From a bacterium (GTDB lineage: Bacteria; Patescibacteriota; Gracilibacteria; Peribacterales; Peribacteraceae), in NCBI GenBank assembly GCA_029558515.1, contig JAKQEM010000028.1, forward strand, positions 1-40,616: 40,616 bases of DNA, in the 5' to 3' direction. Below are positions 21,195 through 38,699 of the stretch, in pieces. The translations under genes and the position numbers were made by a program. The notes below the pieces were generated by a model, which was not told the origin of the DNA, made no database searches, and saw only the letters and a program-made list of their open reading frames with translations. How positions within the stretch are numbered: position 1 is the first letter of the stretch; every line of letters starts with the position of its first letter.

Positions 21195-21232
21195 GGATTA
21201 GGAATGAGGAGTTGGGGATTCGGACTTCGGGT
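21195..21232 (-). repeat. AATCC-type repeat at the rplD/rplW junction
   Basis: Minus strand CCCGAAGTCCGAATCCCCAA then CTCCTCATTCCTAATCC, ending at the rplW ATG. It shares CCCGAAGTCCGAATCCC with the copy before map. Here the repeat encodes the last residues of L4 (PKSESPTPHS). Confidence 0.6.
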
Positions 21233-21998
21233 TCTTGGGAGACACCACTTTCTTTGTAGTCTTCGTAGTCTTTGTCATCTTTGCAGTCTTCGTCTTTGTC
21301 GTCTTTGCAGTCTTCGTCTTCTTCGGTTGCGTCGGTTGCGTCGGACTCGTCGGTTGCCCGTCTGACTCTTTCTTTCCAAACAACTTCTCCGCCGCCGAGA
21401 TCGCCTCCTCCAAAAAGATCAGATGGCGCGATCCCAAGATATCCTCGGGGTTGAGATAGGAAGCGCTGACCGTCTTCACGCCGGTAATGTTGCGAGCGGA
21501 CAGGCGCAGTCCCGCATGGGAAGCCGCCGTCACCAGAAGCAGAGAGCGACCCTGCTCCACGGGAAGTTTGCCCAAAAGCGCAACCAGGGACTTCGTCTTG
21601 ACGGTCTCCGGGTAGTTTTCCAGCACGAGGACCGCACCCTTCTTCGCCTGCACACTGAGACAGGACCGAAGCGCTGCATGACGCATCTTCTGCGGCATCT
21701 CCTTCTCATAATTGCGATCTTTCTTGGAACCGAACGCCTTGCCGCCTCCGCGCAGACCCGCCGCGCGAACGGGGCCGCGACGGGCACGACCCGTGTGCTT
21801 CTGCGCAAACATCTTTTTGGTGGAACCCATCACTTCTCCGCGCGACTTGGTGTGTGCGGTGGAGCGGCGACGATTGCTCTGCTGGCGCACGAGTGCCTGG
21901 TGCATCAGCCCTTCGTTCACCGGAGCATCGAAGAGCGACGCGGGCAGCGTGAACGCCTTCACTTTGGAGCCGGTGGCGGAGAAAAGGTCAGTCTGCAT
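21198..21998 (-). CDS. rplD: 50S ribosomal protein L4 (uL4) with low-complexity C-terminal tail
   Basis: 266 aa against about 205. Core: VNEGLMHQALVRQQSNRRRS, TKSRGEVMGSTKKMFAQKHT, GRARRGPVRAAGLRGGGKAF and the C-terminal fold LSARNITGVKTVSASYLNPE. After about residue 212 a tail of x-P-T and T-K units (GQPTSPTQPTQPKKTKTAKT, then KMTKTTKTTKK) ends SESPTPHS. The first part is encoded by the same kind of DNA as one arm of the palindromic element in rplQ. L4 lines the exit tunnel and in other bacteria represses its own operon by attenuation. Two bases separate it from rplC. Confidence 0.95.
   Translation of the reverse strand: MQTDLFSATGSKVKAFTLPASLFDAPVNEGLMHQALVRQQSNRRRSTAHTKSRGEVMGSTKKMFAQKHTGRARRGPVRAAGLRGGGKAFGSKKDRNYEKEMPQKMRHAALRSCLSVQAKKGAVLVLENYPETVKTKSLVALLGKLPVEQGRSLLLVTAASHAGLRLSARNITGVKTVSASYLNPEDILGSRHLIFLEEAISAAEKLFGKKESDGQPTSPTQPTQPKKTKTAKTTKTKTAKMTKTTKTTKKVVSPKNPKSESPTPHS
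21321..21358. repeat. Single arm of the palindromic element in rplD
   Basis: CTTCGGTTGCGTCGGTTGCG followed by TCGGACTCGTCGGTTGCC on the plus strand, matching the right arms in rplQ and rplX. No left arm is present; instead a run of TCTTCGTAGTC/TTTGCAGTC-like units extends to about 21245. Confidence 0.6.
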
Positions 21999-22000
21999 AA

Positions 22001-22603
22001 TCAGGCGTTGGATTCGAGTGTGAGGAAAACGTGCGCGCCATTGGGTCCCGGGACGGGTCCTTTGACGGCAATCATGTGTTCTGCGGCGTCATTCACGATA
22101 ATGGCGCGATGCTTCAACGTGAGATGCTCCAGTCCCATGTGGCCGGCCATGCGATGTCCGCGGAAGATGCGACCCGGCGATGTGCGCATACCCACCGATC
22201 CCGGCTCGCGCTTGAAGTGTGAACCGTGCGTCTTGGGTCCTCCATGGAACCCGTGGCGACGCACGACGCCTTGAAATCCCTTTCCTTTGGAGACGCCGTG
22301 AATGGTCACCATGCTCTCCGCCGGCAACACCTCCGCCGTCACTTCCTTGCCGGGCGCAAATCCTTCCAGAGATTCCACCTGGAACTCCTTTTGGACGCTG
22401 TAGCGCGTGTGCTCCTTTCCCTTGCGTGTCTTCCACTGCTTGGCGCCGATCCCTAGCACCACGGCATCGTACCCATCCTTCTCCTTGCTCTTGGTGCGCA
22501 CGACGGTGTGCGGTTCCACCTTCAGGTACGTCACGGGAACCGCTTCTCCGGTGGGGAGAAACGCGCGCGACATACCGACTTTCTTGGCGATGAGTCCGAT
22601 CAT
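22001..22603 (-). CDS. rplC: 50S ribosomal protein L3 (uL3)
   Basis: 200 aa, full length: MIGLIAKKVGMSRAFLPTGE, KGFQGVVRRHGFHGGPKTHG, SHFKREPGSVGMRTSPGRIF and KGPVPGPNGAHVFL. L3 is an early-assembling 23S binder at the A-site entry. It is the first gene of the cluster: rpsJ, which usually precedes it, is not here. A promoter lies at 22706-22733. Its ATG overlaps by four bases the stop of a 12-codon upstream reading frame. Confidence 0.98.
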   Translation of the reverse strand: MIGLIAKKVGMSRAFLPTGEAVPVTYLKVEPHTVVRTKSKEKDGYDAVVLGIGAKQWKTRKGKEHTRYSVQKEFQVESLEGFAPGKEVTAEVLPAESMVTIHGVSKGKGFQGVVRRHGFHGGPKTHGSHFKREPGSVGMRTSPGRIFRGHRMAGHMGLEHLTLKHRAIIVNDAAEHMIAVKGPVPGPNGAHVFLTLESNA

Positions 22604-22753: not shown

Positions 22754-23662
22754 TCAATGCCGGCGTCTCTGATAGATCTCCCGTGACAAAGCTGTCACTG
22801 TCTCCTCTGCAATCTTGGGCACCAAAAGCGTTGCAAAAGAAACCAATGCCCGCTGCTGCGCATCATCAAAACTGATCTCATCATGCAAAATTTGTGGTCG
22901 AAATTTCATCAGTGCCTTACGAAATTCATCGAGTGTCCCTTTCTGCCTCGGTCCAAAACAGCATTGCAGGCCGGCATGGAGCAACGCTTTGGCTTGCGTG
23001 ACAATGGCATCTGCGGTGACATGCGCATGCGCCTTCATGAATCTTATGACACTGGGCAATGTTTCAATGGATTCCCATGGAATGACCGGAGATAGAATGT
23101 TCTCCTGTTCCTCCTTTCTCTTGAGTGCGCATGCAGATTCATTGATGCGTTTGCAGAGGGATACATCCTCTTCGTATGCCGACAGATTCTCCCCAATGGA
23201 TAATCTTTTACGAGCATGATGCGCTGCATTCACAGTACTTTTGCTCAACCCACAATCGAGTGCGAATGTGATCGTATGCTTCTTTCCGCTCTTCCTCACC
23301 ACAGATACCTTGCCGGTGCCAAGATCCTCAAACCACACAGGTTGTCCTTCTTCAAATTGCTCAGCAGCAGCTTGATGTATGGCATTGACCGCTCGTGCTT
23401 CACTTCTAATCCGATTGCCAATTTCTGTGAGTCGTTCCCTGCATGCAGCAATGGCGGCAGGATCACCATCTACAATGCATAAAACTGAATCTCGAAGATC
23501 ATGCAATTCTTGCCGCAATTCCTTCTCATTCAGTACTCTTAACGGAGAATCCGCCAATGCCCCAACGAGTGCTTCACAAGCCTGCCGCGACTCCGCCGCG
23601 GTTGCACCCACATCTTCACCGTGGGGCAACGGATCCCTGTCATGCTGTTCCGGAGATGGCAT
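22754..23662 (-). CDS. Unknown soluble protein upstream of the ribosomal cluster (302 aa)
   Basis: Not recognised. The N-terminal 100 residues are acidic and helical (NEKELRQELHDLRDSVLCIV). A beta-rich central part at about 105-135 (QPVWFEDLGTGKVSVVRKSG) could be a small SH3-like or KOW-like barrel. The rest is helical with basic patches (HHARKRLSIGENLSAYEED). No signal peptide or membrane helix. Codon use is more AT-rich than in the ribosomal genes. It ends about 20 bases before the rplC promoter in the same direction, and is divergent from lysS with overlapping AT-rich promoters at about 23674-23690. Function unknown. Confidence 0.75.
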   Translation of the reverse strand: MPSPEQHDRDPLPHGEDVGATAAESRQACEALVGALADSPLRVLNEKELRQELHDLRDSVLCIVDGDPAAIAACRERLTEIGNRIRSEARAVNAIHQAAAEQFEEGQPVWFEDLGTGKVSVVRKSGKKHTITFALDCGLSKSTVNAAHHARKRLSIGENLSAYEEDVSLCKRINESACALKRKEEQENILSPVIPWESIETLPSVIRFMKAHAHVTADAIVTQAKALLHAGLQCCFGPRQKGTLDEFRKALMKFRPQILHDEISFDDAQQRALVSFATLLVPKIAEETVTALSREIYQRRRH

Positions 23663-23780: not shown

Positions 23781-25733
23781 ATGGATCCCATTCGACATCA
23801 GAAAGCGGAGGCGATGCGCGCCAAGGGCACACAACCCTATGCCGCGCGTTTCCTGCGTTCCCACATGCTGCAGGAAGCTAAGGCCGCAGCCGACGGAACC
23901 GGTGTGGCGATTGCCGGGCGGATCGTGCTGTTTCGCGACATGGGCAAGATGACCTTTGCCGTGTTGCAGGATCATACCGGGCGGCTGCAGATCGCGGCGA
24001 AGGCGGATCACATGGACGAAGCGTCCTATCGGGATTTCCTCGCGCTGGTGGACCTGGGTGACTTCATCGGAATCGAGGGGGAACGCTTCACCACGCAGAA
24101 AGGCGAACCGACGGTGCGCATCACCAAGTGGACCATGCTCAGCAAGGCTCTCAGACAGCCGCCGGAGAAGTGGCACGGCGTGAGTGACCCGGAAACTCTA
24201 TGGCGACAACGGTATCTGGATCTGATGACCAATCGCGCGACCTTCGACCGCTTCCTGTTTCGCAGCAAGTTTCTTGAGCGACTGCGGCAATTCTATTGGG
24301 ATCATGACTTCACGGAGGTGGAGACGCCGGTGCTGGTGAACGCCGCATCGGGCGCGCTCGCCACCCCCTTCCGCACACACCACAACGCCTACGATCTGGA
24401 CATGTATCTGCGCATCGCACCGGAGACGTATCTTAAGGAGTGTATCGTCGGTGGATTTGACCGTGTGTTCGAAGTGGCCAGGGTTTTTCGCAACGAAGGA
24501 CTCGATCCCTCTCACCTGCAGGATTTCACCATGCTGGAGCACTACGCGGCGTACTGGGACTACAGGGTGAACATGCAATTCACCGAGGACATGTTGACGA
24601 CGGTACTCAAAGACCTCGTCGGCTCCCTGGTCATTCCCATCCCCGACCGCGACGGGCATCTCCTCGACGTGGACTTCACCCCGCCGTGGCCGCGCATCAG
24701 TTTGCGAGAGACCATCCAACGAGAATGCGGCATTGATTTTGAGCAATATGATTCAGCATCAGCCCTACGGGAAGCCATAAAATCAAAAAATATCCGACTG
24801 GAAATCGACATGGATTCCCTCGGCCGGGGCAACCTGATCGATCAACTCTACAAGAAGGTCAGCCGCACAAAGATCGTTCGCCCTACCTTCATCATCGAGC
24901 AACCGCTGGATCTCTCCCCCCTTGCTCGTCGCAACGATGACAATCCCACCATCACCGACCGGTTTCAATTGGTTGTGAGTGGGTGGGAGATCGTCAACGG
25001 CTACAGCGAACTCGTCGATCCTGTGGATCAAGCGGAACGATTTGCAGAACAGGCGAAAGCGCATGAGGGAGGCGACAGCGACGCGCACCGCAAAGACGAT
25101 GATTTCGTGACGGCGTTGGAATACGGCTGCCCCCCGTGCAGCGGCATCGGCATCGGCATTGATCGTCTGGTCGCACTCCTCACGCAGCAACCCAACCTGC
25201 GCGACGTCATCCTGTTCCCTCTGATGAAACCCGACGAACAGCAACCGAGGGAACCGAGGGGTCCGATGCAACCGATGATGCCAAAGACAGTGCCTTCCTC
25301 CTCCGCATTGCCCGACGAACAATCGAAACGTTTCGTCGCGATTCTGAATAGGAAAGCCGAGCCGGGCAAACTGATGAATGCACTGGGTCACATGACTGCG
25401 GGGCTGAGCAAGCTTGCGAGTGAGCACGATGATCTCTGCTTCCTTCAGTATGAAGATCTAGATGGAGGTGCACATCCGGGAATTTCACATTATCCCTTCA
25501 TCGTGCTGAAAGCGGACAATGCAAATCAGATCCGTCAGGTGAGAAACAATGCGATGAAAGCGGGGGTCCCCTTCACGGATTTCACCAGCACCATGACAGT
25601 CGGCACTTCTCAAAAACAGCGTGATGCGACGAAGGCGATACGAGAGAAAGATTTGGATTACTACGGTATTTGCCTCTTTGGCAGAACGGAAGATCTGGCT
25701 CCCCTCACAAAGAAATTTTCTCTCTTCAAGTAA
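23781..25733 (+). CDS. lysS: Lysyl-tRNA synthetase (class II) fused to a C-terminal DUF2000 domain
   Basis: 650 aa, about 150 more than usual. Residues about 35-120 are the anticodon-binding OB fold (VAIAGRIVLFRDMGKMTFAV). The class II catalytic core has motif 1 near 170-185 (FTEVETPVL), motif 2 at 231-252 (EVARVFRNEGLDPSHLQDFT) and motif 3 at 449-465 (GCPPCSGIGIGIDRLVALL). Residues 483-513 are a Pro/Met/Gln-rich linker. Residues about 515-650 (KRFVAILNRKAEPGKLMNAL, then GHMTAGLSKLA; ends FSLFK) resemble DUF2000, whose known structures have a peptidyl-tRNA-hydrolase-2-like fold. There is no stop, frameshift or restart between the parts. The enzyme charges tRNA-Lys; the role of the fused domain is unknown. 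The ATG at 23781 follows a pyrimidine-rich leader (ctatcctgcccgcc). Confidence 0.93.
   Translation: MDPIRHQKAEAMRAKGTQPYAARFLRSHMLQEAKAAADGTGVAIAGRIVLFRDMGKMTFAVLQDHTGRLQIAAKADHMDEASYRDFLALVDLGDFIGIEGERFTTQKGEPTVRITKWTMLSKALRQPPEKWHGVSDPETLWRQRYLDLMTNRATFDRFLFRSKFLERLRQFYWDHDFTEVETPVLVNAASGALATPFRTHHNAYDLDMYLRIAPETYLKECIVGGFDRVFEVARVFRNEGLDPSHLQDFTMLEHYAAYWDYRVNMQFTEDMLTTVLKDLVGSLVIPIPDRDGHLLDVDFTPPWPRISLRETIQRECGIDFEQYDSASALREAIKSKNIRLEIDMDSLGRGNLIDQLYKKVSRTKIVRPTFIIEQPLDLSPLARRNDDNPTITDRFQLVVSGWEIVNGYSELVDPVDQAERFAEQAKAHEGGDSDAHRKDDDFVTALEYGCPPCSGIGIGIDRLVALLTQQPNLRDVILFPLMKPDEQQPREPRGPMQPMMPKTVPSSSALPDEQSKRFVAILNRKAEPGKLMNALGHMTAGLSKLASEHDDLCFLQYEDLDGGAHPGISHYPFIVLKADNANQIRQVRNNAMKAGVPFTDFTSTMTVGTSQKQRDATKAIREKDLDYYGICLFGRTEDLAPLTKKFSLFK
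25239..25280. repeat. One arm of the palindromic element forming the LysRS-DUF2000 linker
   Basis: CAGCAACCGAGGGAACCGAG then GGGTCCGATGCAACCGATGA on the plus (coding) strand. It is read in the same frame as in the ribosomal-protein tails, giving QPREPRGPMQPMMPK (compare QPKSPKKPTK in L17). Confidence 0.65.
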
Positions 25734-25770
25734 GAGTGCATTTGGCACTGTACATTTTCCACTCATTCCT

Positions 25771-26367
25771 ATGTCCGCACCTCTCCTCGAACACGCTTCC
25801 TACGGCCACCTCCTCCCTTCCGCACACGGTCTCCTGAAGGCACACACCGACCAGACCAAAGCGCATCTGCTTGCAACGGGAGCTGCGATGGCAGCCTTCG
25901 CCAAACGTTTCGGCGGCAACGAACAAACGTGGAGAGTAGCCGGGATGCTGCACGATCTGGATTGGGATCATCTCGACAAAGACGCCGAAGAACACTGTGG
26001 TAAAACGCTGGAACAACTCCTCTCCACGATCGATGCGCCCGCAGAACTCCTCGGCGATATCCGCGCGCATTACGCAACCAAGTACGGCGCTCAGTATCCG
26101 CTCGATTCGATGCTCCGGAAGACCCTCTACTGTGTGGACGAACTCACCGGTTTCATCATCGCGGTCGCGCTGGTGCGGCCGAGCAAGAGTCTCCGTGACA
26201 CCGAAGTGAAGAGCGTGATGAAGAAGTTGAAGGACAAAGCCTTCGCCGCGCAGGTGGATCGCGCGCAGATCCGCGCGTGTGAGGAACTGCTGGAAATGCC
26301 TCTCGATGCATTCGTCGGGGTCACGTTGAATGCAATGAAAGAAGTAGCAGATCAATTGGGTCTGTAA
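25771..26367 (+). CDS. HD-domain phosphohydrolase
   Basis: 198 aa from ATG 25771; the open frame extends 50 codons upstream into lysS but homology begins after MSAPLLEHASYGHLLPSAHG. HD superfamily: H32 in TKAHLLATGAAM and the H61-D62 doublet in VAGMLHDLDWDHLD, with a later His/Tyr-rich segment (IRAHYATKYGAQYPLDSMLR) and ELTGFIIAVALVRPSKSLRD. This resembles the HDIG-type family usually annotated as metal-dependent phosphohydrolases; its substrate (nucleotide or phosphate ester) cannot be told. It follows lysS by 37 bases and may be cotranscribed. A nested hairpin follows 10 bases after the stop. Confidence 0.85.
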   Translation: MSAPLLEHASYGHLLPSAHGLLKAHTDQTKAHLLATGAAMAAFAKRFGGNEQTWRVAGMLHDLDWDHLDKDAEEHCGKTLEQLLSTIDAPAELLGDIRAHYATKYGAQYPLDSMLRKTLYCVDELTGFIIAVALVRPSKSLRDTEVKSVMKKLKDKAFAAQVDRAQIRACEELLEMPLDAFVGVTLNAMKEVADQLGL

Positions 26368-30762: not shown

Positions 30763-32169
30763 CTACACTCTCAACTCTATCTCTTCCTCCACTTCCGGCT
30801 CGAGCACCGCCACCTGCGGATGCGCCGCAGCAATGCGCTCACTGAACGCATGCATGCCCTCTTCTTCGCCGTGCACGAGGATGACACGCTCCAACCCTTC
30901 GACCTTGCTGACGAACGCATCGAGATCCGCGCTGTCGGCATGACCGGAATACGCCTCGATGTAGACGACTTCCGCTTTCTTCGTGTGGAATTCATCGAAT
31001 ATTTTTACCTCCGTAACGGCGGGATCCAGAATGCGCGCCCCCAGCGTATCATGAGCCATGAAGCCGACTGCCAGCACCGTATTGCGCTCGTCTTCGATTT
31101 CGTTCTGCAGGTGATGACGAATGCGCCCCGCCTCGCACATACCCGAGCCCGCCATGACGATGAACGGACCCGGCTTGCCGTTCAGTTCCTTACTGTCCTC
31201 CACGCTCGGCGTGTACGTGGCCAGGGAAAATTGAAACGGATTATGCGCACGAGACAGAAAATCATCGTACATTTCTTTGTCGTAGCACTCAGGATGCTTC
31301 ATGAAGATATCGGTGATCTTGATGGCCAACGGCGAATCGATGAAGATGGGCACGGCGGGGATTTCCTTGGCGTCCCACAGGAGGTGCAACTCGTAGACGA
31401 TCTGTTGCGTCCGCTCCAGAGAGAACGCGGGAATAAGAACTTTTCCGCCGCGTGCAGCCGTCCTGACGACGGTATCCCTCAGTGCGGTCAGCGCGGTTTT
31501 GACATCCGTATGACGACGATTGCCGTACGTCGACTCGCAAATCAGCGTCGTCACGGGCGGCATCTGAGCAGGATCGCGAATGATGGGGAGCGTATTGCGA
31601 CCCAGATCTCCGGTGAATCCGATGCGATGCGTGACCCCGTTTTCCGTCGCCTCGATCACCACCATCGCGGCACCGAGCACGTGTCCTGCTTCGATGAACA
31701 TGGCACGGACGCCGTCGGTGACCGTAAACCACTCGTTGTAATTTTCCCCCGAGAAGAGCTCCATACACGCGACGGCATCGGCCTGCGTGTACAGCGGGCC
31801 CGAGGACGGGAGCATGCTCTTGCGCAGGTGCTTGCGGAAAAACTCTTCGTCTTTCTCCTGGATGTACCCGCCGTCCATCAGCATCACCTCGGAGAGATCC
31901 TTGGTGGCATACGTGCAGAACACGGGACCGCGGTAGCCCTTCTTCCACAGGAGCGGAATGCGTCCGGAGTGGTCCATGTGGGCGTGACTGAGCAGCACCG
32001 CATCGATGTCCTTGGCGGGATCAAACGTGAACGATGCGTTCTTCACCGCAGTCTCTTTGCGCTTGCCCTGGAAGAGTCCGCAATCAAGCAGAATACGCTT
32101 ACCGTTGACCTGCAATTCATGGCAGGAACCGGTGACTTCGCGCGCGGCGCCGTGAGGGATGATTTTCAT
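30763..32169 (-). CDS. Metallo-beta-lactamase/beta-CASP ribonuclease
   Basis: 468 aa from ATG 32169 (MKIIPHGAAREVTGSCHELQ); the frame is open 17 codons upstream to 32220 without homology. Zinc motif HAHMDH at 62-67, further His in FIEAGHVLGAAM, Asp in GFTGDLGRN, beta-CASP motifs in ICESTYGNR, LIPAFSLERTQQIVYEL, VMAGSGMCEAGRIRHHL and EAYSGHADSADLDAF. This is the CPSF-73-like family, in bacteria endo/exoribonucleases acting in mRNA decay or processing. The C-terminus is acidic (EPEVEEEIELRV). The leader is pyrimidine-rich (ctttcccagagtctttc). About 90 bases separate it from the rluB-like gene upstream. Confidence 0.93.
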   Translation of the reverse strand: MKIIPHGAAREVTGSCHELQVNGKRILLDCGLFQGKRKETAVKNASFTFDPAKDIDAVLLSHAHMDHSGRIPLLWKKGYRGPVFCTYATKDLSEVMLMDGGYIQEKDEEFFRKHLRKSMLPSSGPLYTQADAVACMELFSGENYNEWFTVTDGVRAMFIEAGHVLGAAMVVIEATENGVTHRIGFTGDLGRNTLPIIRDPAQMPPVTTLICESTYGNRRHTDVKTALTALRDTVVRTAARGGKVLIPAFSLERTQQIVYELHLLWDAKEIPAVPIFIDSPLAIKITDIFMKHPECYDKEMYDDFLSRAHNPFQFSLATYTPSVEDSKELNGKPGPFIVMAGSGMCEAGRIRHHLQNEIEDERNTVLAVGFMAHDTLGARILDPAVTEVKIFDEFHTKKAEVVYIEAYSGHADSADLDAFVSKVEGLERVILVHGEEEGMHAFSERIAAAHPQVAVLEPEVEEEIELRV

Positions 32170-32259
32170 GAAAGACTCTGGGAAAGTAGTGTAGGTATGA
32201 AAGCAGAACTTTCCTTTCATTGTAGCACAAAAGTGTCTGTTCGTCTTGCGATGTTTCTC

Positions 32260-33111: not shown

Positions 33112-36100
33112 TCATTTCCGCCTTCGTCTCACCCACGCCCACCCCGCCGCCGCGCCCGCGGCCATCACGGCGATCGCAGCGGGACCGGTATCGGATGTGG
33201 CGGGCGGACGAGTGGCGTCGCTACCGGGCACGAAGACCGATCCTTCCGGCGGGAGGAAGGGAATATCAAGCACGGAACCGGGATACGGGGATTCTGCCGC
33301 CGAACGTTCCTTCTGACAGAAAGACGAACAACCGTCCCCGTCCATCCTGTTGCCGTCATCGCAACGCTCCAGCGGCGTATCCAAGATACCGTCGCCGCAG
33401 CGGCTTAAGGTGCAATCGGGGCGACAGGGCGCATTGGGTTTGTCGCTGTTCTCCACTCCCGCATCGCACTGCTCGCCGGGATCGATGCGGGTATTGCCGC
33501 AGAAGGGAGGAAGAAGATCAATCTGCGACTCCGTCAGACAACGATGTTGAATGCAGCGTGCACCGGCCGGGCAATCGGCATCCTGTTCGCAGAAGAGTCT
33601 GTCGGCGGGTGTTTCTCCGTCTTGCACCCTAAAGTCATCACGCAGTGCGGATGCCGTGACAGTATCGGTGCAGCGGAAGCAAGGAAGATCGGCGATGGGA
33701 CCGCAGGAGAGTCCGACGGACGCACAGTACGCATCACCGACTGCACACTCGGTCCCCGTACACGCCACCGCATCGGGGAAGGGAGGCTCATAGGGAGCGG
33801 AAGACATGCGGGAACGCACGCTGCCTATCCACGCATCCGCGGAAGAATGAGCGTTGTCGCCGCTGGATCTGCTGCCCGAGAAGTCCGTCACGCATTGGAA
33901 ACAGGGAGGACTCTGTGTTTCGTAGCAGAGACGATTGATTTGAGCGCAGTACGCGGCTGCTCCGCGCACACATGCATCACCATAACACAGAGAGTCTCCA
34001 CTCGACACACCGGATTTGCTGGAACTTCTCGACGAACGCGAACTGCCGGACTTACCGGATGCTTTGGAACTCTTGGAGCGGGAGGCACCGGAGGCGGAGC
34101 GCGAGGAGAGGGAGCCGAACGACGGACCGCCGGAGGAACGGGAGAGGCCGGAGGCGGAGCGCGAGGAGAGGGAACCAAACGAAGGACCGCCGGAGGAACG
34201 GGAGAGGCCGGAGGCGGAGCGCGAGGAGAGGGAGCCGAACGAAGGACCGCCGGAGGAACGAGAGGCACTGGAGGCGGAGCGTGAGGAGAGGGAACCGGGG
34301 AAGACCGAACCGGCGGATCCTCGAGATCCGCCCGAACCTCCGGACGACCCAAAGCAGCAGCACACCTGATCGCCGACCGCCACAGCTCCGGCAGACCCGG
34401 CGCTCACGACAAATCCCGTACTCGCATTGCCACGACTGGTAAGAGCATCAGTACACCAATTCGTCAGATCACAGTAGCCGCCCCACGCATGCGTGCACGC
34501 ATTGGTCGGTTCATCCAACTGCGTCTGCGTGCACTTGTAGTACAGGCACGGATCGCTGGGGATGCCGCAGCTGACGAACACGGACGGCGACCCGGTCTGC
34601 ATGCAACACACGGGTTCTTCGCACTGTTGCGCAACCGTATTGCAGATTTGTCCTTCCGCGCATTCTTCGTTCCCATGACAACAATCTTCAATGGGTGTAT
34701 AGTGGCACGTTTTGTTGTCGACCGGACTGTACCGGGACTGCTGACAGGTGACCGTCTGGCAATCAAACTGCGGACAATCCGCAACGGTGTCGCAGAGCTG
34801 ACTGCTCATGCACGCACCATTCGAAGGATCACAAGCCGTCCCCGCCAAACAGGACATCGGCTCGTTTTCACATCGTGCAAAGCCGACGCAGCGATCCACG
34901 GTGCACGCGTCTCCGTCATCGCAAAGCGGTTGCAGAGAATCATGAACGCATCCCGTACCGCATTGCACATATCCCGTACCGCACACGGTGCACTCGCCAT
35001 CCGTGCACGTACCCCCCATCCCGCACTCGCCGTCGCTCACACACCGGTACTCGCTGCTGACACTACTGCTCACGGCATCGTCCGACGACGGGCAGCAGCA
35101 CGTCATATATGTTTGCGACGGGTTGCCATACGCCCCGCCTTGCAGCACCGTTGTCGTGATGGTTCCCGATGCTTCCTGTCCGACGGGACAGACATGCTCG
35201 CCGATACCGCGCACGATCTCGCACTGCGTGCCAGACGCACCGCACGCGACGGGACAGTATCCCAAATCAATCTCGCCCTGCAGCATGCACGCGTCCCCGC
35301 ACTTCCCGTACCCCGGGCCGCAAGTGCACCCCGCCTGCGTACACGTTCCGCCGGGGCCGCACCAAGCGTTCTGCGGTTGATAGGCGCAGTAAGATTTTGT
35401 CGGATCCAGCGGGATGACGCACACGTCGGCCGTGCAGAGATTGCCTTCCCCCGCGCAATCTTCATTGGAGCAGCACTGCCCTTGTTCGCACGTTTCGCCG
35501 GTCACCTGGGCGAGAGGCAACGTATCGCCCCTGCGGAAGGGAAGAAAATCGAAGCGGAGCAATCCGGCAAGGAAGCGCAGGAAGCGACTGCCAAGGGACA
35601 AGGTGCCCGTTGAGCCACCATCGACGGTTCCCCCCGCCGCGGTGCAAGCATTGGCCGTGGGATACACGGGGCAACCGGGAGGGCAGACGAGCGGCCCCGC
35701 CGACCCGCCGCTCCCGCCATTCCCTCCCGAGCCTCCGCCCCCGCCACTCCCACCGGACCCGTCGCTGCCTCCCGAACCTCCCGATCCACCCGAACCTCCG
35801 CTTCCTCCCGTACTGCTCTTTGTGGAAGCAGCGGATGATGTGACGCCGGTGCCGTCGGGCACGCACCGATAACACTCACCTTCGCAAGTGTCGTTTCCGC
35901 ACGTAGTGATGTCACAGACGGGCTCCTGGAGGAGCGGACCGCAGTACGCCGTGGTCGTGCCATTGGGATCCCCGCAGTCGGTCCACCCTTCGTAGCAACG
36001 CCCCCTGGTTTTGTAGGCCTTGGAAACCGTCCCGTCCGGTTCGAATTTCGCGAAGCAGTGCAGGCAAGGTGAGTACCGCGTACTGAGTTCCGTTTTTGCG

Positions 36101-38553
36101 GTGCAGGTGACATCACACACCGCTTTCGGATCAATGTCTCCCGCACGTTCAAGCGTTGTTCCCTCCGGACAGGTCGGAGGATCTTGCACGCACTTCCCGG
36201 CTTCAGTGCGCACAGGGCAGGAATATGGCTCCTTGCAGTTTTGCCATGGAATCGAACTGGAGGAAATGGAGCTGACGGAAAAGAGAGCAGAATCAGAAGA
36301 GGACGCACGCGAAGAGCTCACGTTGACCGAGGACGATCGTGAGCGAGTGCTTGCCACCGATGATGACACAAGCGATCGAACGCTCGCAGTCGATGACGCA
36401 CTCCCCTTGCTGGAGGCGGAACGCGGTGCGGGTGTGCAGCAGTTCCCCACGTTCCACGGCGGAGTCAGTGCGCCGATGATGCAGCTCTGCGCCATGGTCG
36501 TTCCGCCGATCAACTCGCACTCACGCGGCAGCAGACACCCCTGTCCGGCCGGACACGAGGAAGCGGAGGAGCCGCCGCTGCCGCCTTTGCTGCCACCTTT
36601 GCTGCCGCCGGCAGAAGAGCCGTCGTCGACCGAGGCGGCGTTCGATGCAGCGGAACCGGGCGTGGCTGGGCCGCACTGAAAGACATTCGGAGGACCTATC
36701 ATGCCGGGGTTCGCGCAGACGGGGTTATAGCCGCCCGCGCCGTCCGTCCACGCAAAACATGCTTTCCCGGAAGGACAGGTGACGCCACCGCACGCGCTGT
36801 CGCAGGCCGCATCACCGTCTCCATCTCCATCCCCATCCCCATCCCCATCCCCGTCTCCGTCTCCATCTCCATCCCCGTCTCCGTCTCCGTCTCCATCACC
36901 GTCGCCGTCTCCATCTCCGTCTCCGTCCCCGTCTCCGTCTCCGTCTCCGTCACCACCCATGCCACCACCACCACCACCACCACCGCCACCCGGACCACTG
37001 TCGCATTTGGGAGCCACGACACCAAGTGCTCCTACACATTCTTTTGCATTCACACAACGCCCTGTTGCCATACCGGCGGGCTGGTAGCAACAAACAACAC
37101 CTTTCTCTTTGCCGTCCTCTACTATTGGACGGGTATATTGCCAAAATGTTTGCCCATTTGCTAGTATTGTCTCGTTCCAGTTCGCACTACAATCACTCGC
37201 ATACAAACAAGCACAACTTACATTAGGTTTACCACATGTTTCAGCAAGTGTCTCGACTGGACGACATGTGTATTTGCCAGGACCAATTCGGTTTGTACAC
37301 ACATAGCCTGGTGGACAGCCCTCCTGATTAGCTAAAGTACCCTTCCTGCGCGTACATTCGAATACCTTAAATTCTGTAATCAAACGATGCTCGTCCGTAA
37401 TCTGACGTTTTTTGAACAACAAATCTGAGAGACCGGCAACCAAAGATCGCCACACACCCAAACGACGGTCAGAAGATGCCACCGCACTGACGGAACTTGC
37501 AGCGTCGTCCTCGGAATCGGGGAATTCCTCCTCCGTCGTAAAGCAGCAATGCGGAAGACACTTTCCGTCCCCCGATGCAAAGCACCCGTCTACGCCGGCC
37601 ACCACCGTCTGGCTGTTATCCCCCACCGCATTCGTATCGTTCGGTCCCCCGTCCCCCCAGTCGCAAACTTCTACCTCTCCATCCGCGTTCGACGCCTGTA
37701 CGATGCCGTCCCCGCACCGCGCTTTCTTGCACGCGTTGGAGCAGGCATCGTTGTCCACGGTATTCCCGTCATCGCACTCCTCCATCTGCCCCGCAAGATT
37801 CGGCGCATGCACTTTGCCATCCCCACAGTATGTCGGCACGCAACGGAAGCATTGGCCATCCGTGCCATCGGCGCACCGGTAACCGGCTCCGGCCGTTTCC
37901 ATGATGTGCCCCTCGGGACACGTAATGAGTTCCGGGTCAGACGTGCACTGATCGTAGCCTTCGGGGCAGGACGGATTGGTGCAGCGAAGACATACCCTGC
38001 CGTTCGGGAGCGGACATCCGGAACCGACGGGTTCCGTTGTCTCGAACGTACAATCCATTTGCGAAGGATCTCTATCGTAGAAACCTTCCGGGCATCCGCA
38101 AATAAGATTCGGCGTGCATGCCGTCGTCGTGATTTGGTTGTAACACCCCTGAGGCGGTTCGGACGGCGGATTGCACGTTGCGCCAGCCGTTCGTTCCGGA
38201 TCGCAACTGCACCGATTCCAGCCGCTCCGTTGGTACCAGACGGGATCCAAGCGTGTTTGTGTATTTTCATCCCATGCGCAGAAAGACTCCCACAAACAAT
38301 CTCCCGTGCAGAGAGGGACAATACCGGGATTGCATTCTCCATTGGTACATGTCCCGCTAACACCATCAGTTTCCTCGCAAGACACCCCGTCGGACCGCCC
38401 CGCACAACTCGTCACCACCACCGCGCCAAGATTCGGAGGACGTACGTCGGGGATCGCCCGCACGATCAGCAACGCCGTCACCGCAAGCGCGGCGCCCGAA
38501 ACCAGTCGCATGGCGTGCCGGGCAAGGAAGGTCCGCATGGACGCAAGATTCAT
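33112..38553 (-). CDS. Giant Cys-rich, Ser/Gly-rich surface protein with C-terminal anchor-like tail
   Basis: 1813 aa from ATG 38553; the open frame continues to 38697 but runs into the rRNA terminator. A hydrophobic stretch at 17-31 (LVSGAALAVTALLIV) is a signal peptide or anchor. Then come many Cys-rich modules, including DUF4215-like units (GQMEECDDGNTVDNDACSNA; a second set near the C-terminus with LERCDDGNRMDGDGCSSFCQ), a poly-Gly plus (Gly-Asp)24 run at about 530-582, Ser-rich linkers, Gly/Ser spacers and a 20-residue tandem repeat at about 1418-1491. The end is TSDTGP (1786-1791), a membrane helix and RRRRK, similar to sortase-type sorting signals although LPxTG is not present. A segment at about 370-510 is encoded by more AT-rich DNA. 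Inferred role: long disulfide-rich stalk or adhesin on the cell surface. Ligand unknown. Confidence 0.9.
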   Translation of the reverse strand: MNLASMRTFLARHAMRLVSGAALAVTALLIVRAIPDVRPPNLGAVVVTSCAGRSDGVSCEETDGVSGTCTNGECNPGIVPLCTGDCLWESFCAWDENTQTRLDPVWYQRSGWNRCSCDPERTAGATCNPPSEPPQGCYNQITTTACTPNLICGCPEGFYDRDPSQMDCTFETTEPVGSGCPLPNGRVCLRCTNPSCPEGYDQCTSDPELITCPEGHIMETAGAGYRCADGTDGQCFRCVPTYCGDGKVHAPNLAGQMEECDDGNTVDNDACSNACKKARCGDGIVQASNADGEVEVCDWGDGGPNDTNAVGDNSQTVVAGVDGCFASGDGKCLPHCCFTTEEEFPDSEDDAASSVSAVASSDRRLGVWRSLVAGLSDLLFKKRQITDEHRLITEFKVFECTRRKGTLANQEGCPPGYVCTNRIGPGKYTCRPVETLAETCGKPNVSCACLYASDCSANWNETILANGQTFWQYTRPIVEDGKEKGVVCCYQPAGMATGRCVNAKECVGALGVVAPKCDSGPGGGGGGGGGGMGGDGDGDGDGDGDGDGDGDGDGDGDGDGDGDGDGDGDGDGDGDGDGDGDAACDSACGGVTCPSGKACFAWTDGAGGYNPVCANPGMIGPPNVFQCGPATPGSAASNAASVDDGSSAGGSKGGSKGGSGGSSASSCPAGQGCLLPRECELIGGTTMAQSCIIGALTPPWNVGNCCTPAPRSASSKGSASSTASVRSLVSSSVASTRSRSSSVNVSSSRASSSDSALFSVSSISSSSIPWQNCKEPYSCPVRTEAGKCVQDPPTCPEGTTLERAGDIDPKAVCDVTCTAKTELSTRYSPCLHCFAKFEPDGTVSKAYKTRGRCYEGWTDCGDPNGTTTAYCGPLLQEPVCDITTCGNDTCEGECYRCVPDGTGVTSSAASTKSSTGGSGGSGGSGGSGGSDGSGGSGGGGGSGGNGGSGGSAGPLVCPPGCPVYPTANACTAAGGTVDGGSTGTLSLGSRFLRFLAGLLRFDFLPFRRGDTLPLAQVTGETCEQGQCCSNEDCAGEGNLCTADVCVIPLDPTKSYCAYQPQNAWCGPGGTCTQAGCTCGPGYGKCGDACMLQGEIDLGYCPVACGASGTQCEIVRGIGEHVCPVGQEASGTITTTVLQGGAYGNPSQTYMTCCCPSSDDAVSSSVSSEYRCVSDGECGMGGTCTDGECTVCGTGYVQCGTGCVHDSLQPLCDDGDACTVDRCVGFARCENEPMSCLAGTACDPSNGACMSSQLCDTVADCPQFDCQTVTCQQSRYSPVDNKTCHYTPIEDCCHGNEECAEGQICNTVAQQCEEPVCCMQTGSPSVFVSCGIPSDPCLYYKCTQTQLDEPTNACTHAWGGYCDLTNWCTDALTSRGNASTGFVVSAGSAGAVAVGDQVCCCFGSSGGSGGSRGSAGSVFPGSLSSRSASSASRSSGGPSFGSLSSRSASGLSRSSGGPSFGSLSSRSASGLSRSSGGPSFGSLSSRSASGASRSKSSKASGKSGSSRSSRSSSKSGVSSGDSLCYGDACVRGAAAYCAQINRLCYETQSPPCFQCVTDFSGSRSSGDNAHSSADAWIGSVRSRMSSAPYEPPFPDAVACTGTECAVGDAYCASVGLSCGPIADLPCFRCTDTVTASALRDDFRVQDGETPADRLFCEQDADCPAGARCIQHRCLTESQIDLLPPFCGNTRIDPGEQCDAGVENSDKPNAPCRPDCTLSRCGDGILDTPLERCDDGNRMDGDGCSSFCQKERSAAESPYPGSVLDIPFLPPEGSVFVPGSDATRPPATSDTGPAAIAVMAAGAAAGWAWVRRRRK
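34081..34300. repeat. 60-base tandem repeat, about 3.6 copies
   Basis: Units begin at 34081, 34141, 34201 and 34261 (the last partial) and contain GGAGGCGGAGCGCGAGGAGA. Copies 1-3 differ at only a few positions. It encodes a 20-residue unit read as GPSFGSLSSRSASGLSRSSG in the giant surface protein. Confidence 0.95.
36811..36957. repeat. Hexanucleotide repeat encoding (Gly-Asp)24
   Basis: Twenty-four Asp codons alternate with Gly codons at exact 6-base steps (first Asp codon 36951-36949, last 36813-36811 on the minus strand). Third positions vary, so the array is a diverged hexamer repeat. It is preceded in the protein by a poly-Gly run. Confidence 0.95.
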
Positions 38554-38639
38554 TCTGCGAAAGTGTACCGAAATTCGCCTCGTTCTGCCGTAGACATTTT
38601 TAAATTTCCCACCCAAACGAAACCACGCGGAAAGATACG

Positions 38640-38668
38640 AAAAAAGCACCTCTTGGGAGAAGAAGTGC
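38640..38668 (-). terminator. Rho-independent terminator of the rRNA operon
   Basis: On the minus strand GCACTTCTT (38668-38660), loop CTCCC, AAGAGGTGC (38654-38646), then six T: a 9-bp stem with one non-Watson-Crick pair. It lies about 31 bases after the 5S gene and about 87 bases before the giant surface-protein gene. Confidence 0.85.
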
Positions 38669-38699
38669 GTCGTTTCCGTCTGTGATGCAAAGTACACTG

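Follow-up and report, generated by a model that had tools for sequence, protein, structure and literature searches.

The LysRS–DUF2000 fusion, a lysyl-tRNA synthetase (LysRS) continuous with a C-terminal DUF2000 domain, is a recurrent architecture in Patescibacteria and not a lone oddity. We describe it here from a member of the Peribacteraceae, in a contig of 40,616 nt (the window, by which we mean the whole stretch of DNA analyzed). The synthetase is a class II enzyme, and the appended domain is predicted to have the fold of peptidyl-tRNA hydrolase 2 (Pth2) without itself being a Pth2. We tentatively propose that it may act on acylated tRNA-Lys.

The fusion gene and its neighborhood

Features of the locus are collected in Table 1. 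The fusion gene is a single uninterrupted frame that translates into 650 aa with one stop, at its end, in agreement with the continuous 650-codon frame of the original prediction; no stop lies at positions 25200–25320, an interval in which the prediction had allowed for one. An assembly artefact is very unlikely, as the same architecture occurs in the independent genome STB_185 and in 35 further LysRS–DUF2000 fusions.

The synthetase portion is a complete class II LysRS, as had been claimed. Over residues 4–485 it scores 504 bits against TIGR00499, above the curated cutoff of 427.6, and 570 bits against NF001756. The OB domain (PF01336) spans residues 42–120 and the catalytic domain (PF00152) residues 137–482, the nearest solved chains to the core are LysRS (E about 1e-123), and the class II motif 2 (FRNEG, 236–240) and motif 3 (GIGIDRL, 457–463) are intact. 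R237, N238, E239 and R462 are invariant across 37 LysRS–DUF2000 proteins. The enzyme is predicted to charge tRNA-Lys. A LysX-type fusion was considered and rejected, with a score against NF002821 of 494 bits versus a cutoff of 742. LysX (LysPG synthase–LysRS) is also a LysRS fusion, but its partner is a different one and is joined at the opposite end.

The linker ends in SALPDEQSKRF, which is similar to the way free-standing DUF2000 proteins begin (M..LPDENSKRF). It leads into a domain of ~135 residues that begins at KRFVAILNRK, exactly where it had been placed by the original prediction.

Table 1. Features of the lysS–DUF2000 locus (window coordinates)
Feature	Position	Strand	Basis or remark
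rplD	21198–21998	−	Follows rplC; neighbor shared with the G566 locus
rplC (L3)	22001–22603	−	Same ribosomal neighbors flank the G566 class I LysRS–DUF2000–HD locus
302-aa ORF between rplC and lysS	22754–23662	−	No convincing Pfam match
lysS–DUF2000 fusion gene	23781–25733	+	650 aa + stop; translation, profile matches
Class II LysRS core, residues 1–486	23781–25238	+	TIGR00499/PF00152/PF01336, nearest solved chains, motifs
Pro/Ser-rich linker, residues 487–515 (29 residues)	25239–25325	+	Sequence reading
DUF2000 (PF09391) domain, residues 516–650, predicted Pth2-like fold	25326–25730	+	Profile, AlphaFold2, Foldseek
Asn533, sole residue invariant in all aligned DUF2000 domains	25377–25379	+	Alignments
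His537, invariant in DUF2000 types 1–3 (the three largest)	25389–25391	+	Alignments
Stop codon and 37-nt gap before HD gene	25731–25770	+	LysRS and HD continuous here in other family members
HD-domain protein, 198 aa, HD motif (LHDLD) intact	25771–26367	+	Profile match; LysRS-fused in most family members
Beta-CASP/RMMBL metallo-beta-lactamase, probable ribonuclease	30763–32220	−	
1861-aa ORF, DUF4215 repeats near C-terminus, beside 5S and 23S rRNA	33112–38697	−	

In the window, Rfam identifies the 23S and 5S rRNAs and nothing else, hence neither a T-box nor any other regulatory RNA ahead of lysS. Sequence that looks similar to the beta-CASP/RMMBL protein lies beside lysS in two other genomes (G188 and G539). 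The HD gene immediately downstream of the fusion was absent from the original prediction.

The original prediction knew of no described example of such a fusion, and our literature search likewise found no published report of one and no paper that mentions DUF2000; with most subscription journals outside the scope of the search, this is weak evidence.

Fold and conserved residues of the DUF2000 domain

The predicted DUF2000 identity is confirmed by profile search, with no placement in an unrelated family. Residues 516–650 match PF09391 over its full length (1–133 of 133; E 2.3e-34; 118.6 bits, cutoff 25), and this domain is the only DUF2000 copy that the search finds in the 1.31-Mb genome. An AlphaFold2 model of the isolated domain, calculated from an alignment of 59 window-type DUF2000 domains, has a mean pLDDT of 95.6 and a pTM of 0.88 (for the full-length fusion, with an alignment of 3 rows, the pLDDT is 42.7). 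The Pth2-like fold that had been proposed is upheld by this model: the 13 PDB chains matched by Foldseek at E ≤ 1e-3 are 2gax and twelve Pth2 chains, with nothing unrelated among them and with TM-scores normalized by target of 0.61–0.83. The Pth2 structures are 1q7s (human Bit1; 0.75), 1xty (0.69), 2zv3 (0.68), 3erj, 1rlk and 1wn2. The best structural match is the DUF2000 structure 2gax (Atu0240; TM 0.81–0.83), which a profile search also matches (E 5e-16). 2gax is a single-domain protein without known function, whereas the window domain is joined to LysRS.

The case for kinship with Pth2 is structural, because the profile–profile comparison of DUF2000 and Pth2 gives a weak score (probability 2.7%). 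The window domain scores 13.2–13.5 bits against the Pth2 family PF01981, below the gathering cutoff of 23, and 12 of 64 DUF2000 domains match this profile (best E 6.6e-4), a faint sequence signal that nevertheless agrees with the fold. Catalytic roles were reportedly assigned by Fromant in 2005 to Lys18, Asp86 and Thr90 of Pth2 (S. solfataricus numbering). In our profile alignment, for which the S. solfataricus sequence used has one mismatch relative to 1xty, the GK...H helix of Pth2 has a counterpart in DUF2000 and His537 aligns with Pth2 His25. Lys18 aligns with a variable position, occupied by Lys530 in the window and by other residues elsewhere; Asp86 and Thr90 have no aligned equivalent, in a C-terminal half where the alignment is weak. 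DUF2000 types 4 and 5 lack His537. A functional role for Asn533 and His537 is best regarded as putative. Among window-type domains, the invariant polar residues are N21, H25, D47, H53, S57, N68, R73, R76, Q101 and E110.

The window domain thus resembles Pth2 in its overall fold and GK...H helix, but differs in its profile score, in the absence of Asp86/Thr90 equivalents and in having an extra invariant Asn. Because the Asp/Thr catalytic motif is not conserved, we regard the modeled domain as having the fold of Pth2 but not as a Pth2, and hydrolysis of Lys-tRNA or peptidyl-tRNA is for the same reason an unproven proposal.

Distribution and history of the locus

PF09391 is present in 35 of 380 Patescibacteria sampled across the phylum and in 61 of 353 genomes of the window's class, some members of which were translated with TGA as Gly. 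Reading of the genes gives 36 long LysRS–DUF2000 fusions besides the window, from about 18 families of Patescibacteria as counted by family code, and all 37 proteins match both the LysRS models and DUF2000. Ca. Peribacteraceae STB_185 (G540, locus L136) has the same architecture as the window at 68% identity. Among the surveyed Patescibacteria genomes, DUF2000 is not fused to any other synthetase; the fusion survey covered this phylum, and beyond it window-type domains only. Such domains also occur in Vibrio, Shewanella, Pseudoalteromonas and Anaerolineae, and the free DUF2000 genes of Vibrio, Shewanella, Anaerolineae and others have no steady neighbor and do not lie beside lysS. Eleven plasmid matches to the domain were found; for seven the annotation says no more than DUF2000 protein, and two inspected entries carry none. 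A phage origin was rejected, the window-type domain having no match in phages. Two further cases are a LysRS with two tandem DUF2000 domains of different subfamilies (G665, L098) and a LysRS–DUF2000 gene split into several frames, by frameshift or sequencing error (G364, L044).

The distribution of the fused state on the DUF2000 tree requires five changes, at least four of them forced by well-supported branches; these are gains and losses together, and the ~139 alignment columns limit branch support. Free-standing domains make up most of the clade in which the window domain groups with that of G540.

In the window's own family, DUF2000 is found on a minority of LysRS. With the window and G540 set aside, 27 of the 28 class II lysS genes examined encode LysRS–HD fusions of 715–834 codons, and in the remaining one (G570) HD is a separate gene. 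In the window and G540, DUF2000 sits at the LysRS–HD junction and HD is the next gene. The DUF2000 domains of these two genomes are sisters (support 97/97) but their LysRS cores are not a clade (p-AU 0.0002), which argues either that capture happened twice, from related donors, or that recombination took place at the junction. The match between LPDEQSKRF and the start of free DUF2000 proteins makes it simplest to suppose that an entire free gene was captured in frame. A free-standing DUF2000 gene would have been captured, in the window's lineage, at the junction of an ancestral lysS–HD fusion, and this capture would have separated HD into the next gene.

In 41 of 42 cases the HD protein has an intact His-Asp motif. 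The protein tracks LysRS in Patescibacteria (loci L218–L284), either fused to a class II enzyme or as the next gene after a class I or class II enzyme; about 30 HD matches are in frames longer than 600 aa, and a further 20 or so lie no more than 1.4 kb from lysS. The class I loci serve as a control for the role of the synthetase scaffold. In G566 (L123, 2343–5033), a class I LysRS is followed by a free DUF2000 gene and then HD, beside rplC/rplD as in the window. Of the 25 class I loci found, about half have HD next to the synthetase, and the HD tree requires at least six changes of the LysRS class label. The companions stay while a non-homologous analogue replaces the synthetase; this links HD to lysylation rather than to the class II scaffold, and the single case of G566 does the same for DUF2000. 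A Cys-rich repeat ORF beside the G566 locus (L123, 5339–8389) is similar to the 1861-aa ORF of the window.

Some relatives carry additional domains. Among the 37 fused proteins, Pfam identifies HD in five, B3/4 in one and AlaXM in one; AlaXM and B3/4 are known aminoacyl-tRNA editing modules. The B3/4 domain (PF03483) is in G281 (L047) and the AlaXM domain in G080 (L062), with HxxxH and CxxxH intact. LysRS proteins without DUF2000 can carry HD alone, B3/4 (G198, L256) or B3/4 plus HD (G039, L254), as assigned by eye. A profile search of the window protein finds neither an AlaX/SAD nor a B3/4 domain. The intact motifs of the G080 AlaXM distinguish it from the AlaX-like part of Plasmodium TrpRS, which has lost both and for which a tRNA-binding function has been proposed (PMC3680381).

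Possible roles of the appended domain

The reading we favor, to which we give slightly less than even weight, is that DUF2000 is a tethered Pth2-fold hydrolase that proofreads or recycles acylated tRNA-Lys. Post-transfer editing is not known for LysRS, nor are we aware of a domain in it that is dedicated to this step. In this model, LysRS would charge tRNA-Lys, and DUF2000 on its flexible linker would receive the acylated 3′ end of the charged tRNA and hydrolyze the ester when the tRNA carries a wrong group (a non-cognate amino acid) or a blocked one (N-acylated or peptidyl). LysRS would thereby have a post-transfer proofreading or recycling site in cis. The model builds on the architecture, predicted fold, recurrence, synteny and HD companion observed or computed here, and on DUF2000 fusions being to LysRS only in the surveyed genomes. 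The sister fusions with AlaXM and B3/4, together with the class I LysRS in the same operon position, lend indirect support to the idea of a tRNA-acting appendage. AlaRS/ThrRS, PheRS with its B3/4 domain and Plasmodium TrpRS–AlaX (PMC3680381) likewise combine a synthetase, a linker and an acyl-tRNA-hydrolase-type domain. They differ in that LysRS, which edits homocysteine, homoserine and ornithine, is described as doing so before transfer only (PMC7373986), and in that DUF2000 is no known editing domain.

Several observations speak against this reading. Free DUF2000 genes elsewhere are not beside lysS, which leaves room for a general role unrelated to tRNA-Lys; Plasmodium TrpRS illustrates that an editing-type appendage may be no more than a relic that binds tRNA (PMC3680381); Asp86/Thr90 of Pth2 are unmatched, the Lys18 position is variable and His537 is not universal; and the genome has a normal Pth1, with DUF2000 on a minority of the family's LysRS. 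Replacement of a missing Pth was rejected as the sole reason for the fusion. Such simple replacement is unlikely because Pth1 is present in 25 of 27 LysRS–DUF2000 genomes, the window's included; no Pth2 of PF01981 is found in 59 relatives.

It is also conceivable, though we think it unlikely, that DUF2000 is a Pth-type recycler and not an editing domain. Its substrates would be Lys-tRNAs blocked at the amino group by an acetyl or peptidyl moiety, such as those produced by acetylating toxins or by drop-off from the ribosome. Enzymes of the Pth1 type can cleave aminoacyl-tRNA that has been N-acetylated and undo the action of acetylating toxins (PMC9241777), and the modeled fold would suit a similar activity, but Pth1 is already in nearly all of these genomes, the Pth2 Asp/Thr residues are not conserved and restriction to LysRS would be odd for a general recycler. 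Nor do we put much weight on a non-catalytic domain that adds tRNA affinity, oligomerization or regulation to LysRS. The Plasmodium TrpRS appendage without catalytic residues (PMC3680381) is a precedent, and strict conservation in DUF2000 is confined to a small core (Asn533). Another is the β subunit of heterotetrameric GlyRS, likewise a bacterial synthetase with an HD domain, which has lost the catalytic HD pair and still affects charging (PMC8464048); the HD protein beside LysRS, by comparison, keeps its own. However, the many invariant polar residues of window-type domains look like an active site, and DUF2000 occurs free-standing too. Least probable in our view is action on a small molecule connected with lysine activation (lysyl-AMP, Ap4A or an analogue of lysine), with the HD protein perhaps serving as a phosphohydrolase. 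LysRS is a known Ap4A producer, and the HD protein follows either class of LysRS through the label switches on its tree and adjoins class I enzymes. Both the Pth2 fold and the presence of AlaXM and B3/4 as partners favor acyl-tRNA instead, and the HD protein has no match to assigned Ap4A hydrolase families.

A broader form of the proofreading model strikes us as possible rather than probable: DUF2000 may be a novel class of hydrolase, one that proofreads or detoxifies aminoacyl-tRNA and has been joined repeatedly, with AlaXM, B3/4 and a putative HD phosphohydrolase, to LysRS of either class in Patescibacteria. If this is true, LysRS would gain a post-transfer quality control that was thought to be missing. 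DUF2000 is a family with a solved structure and without an assigned function, and its repeated fusion to one synthetase, the editing modules and the class I synteny make acylated tRNA-Lys a concrete, testable substrate. The repeated fusion suggests an unrecognized quality-control step for lysine-tRNA, and points to an unrecognized pressure on lysine decoding in the ultra-small Patescibacteria.
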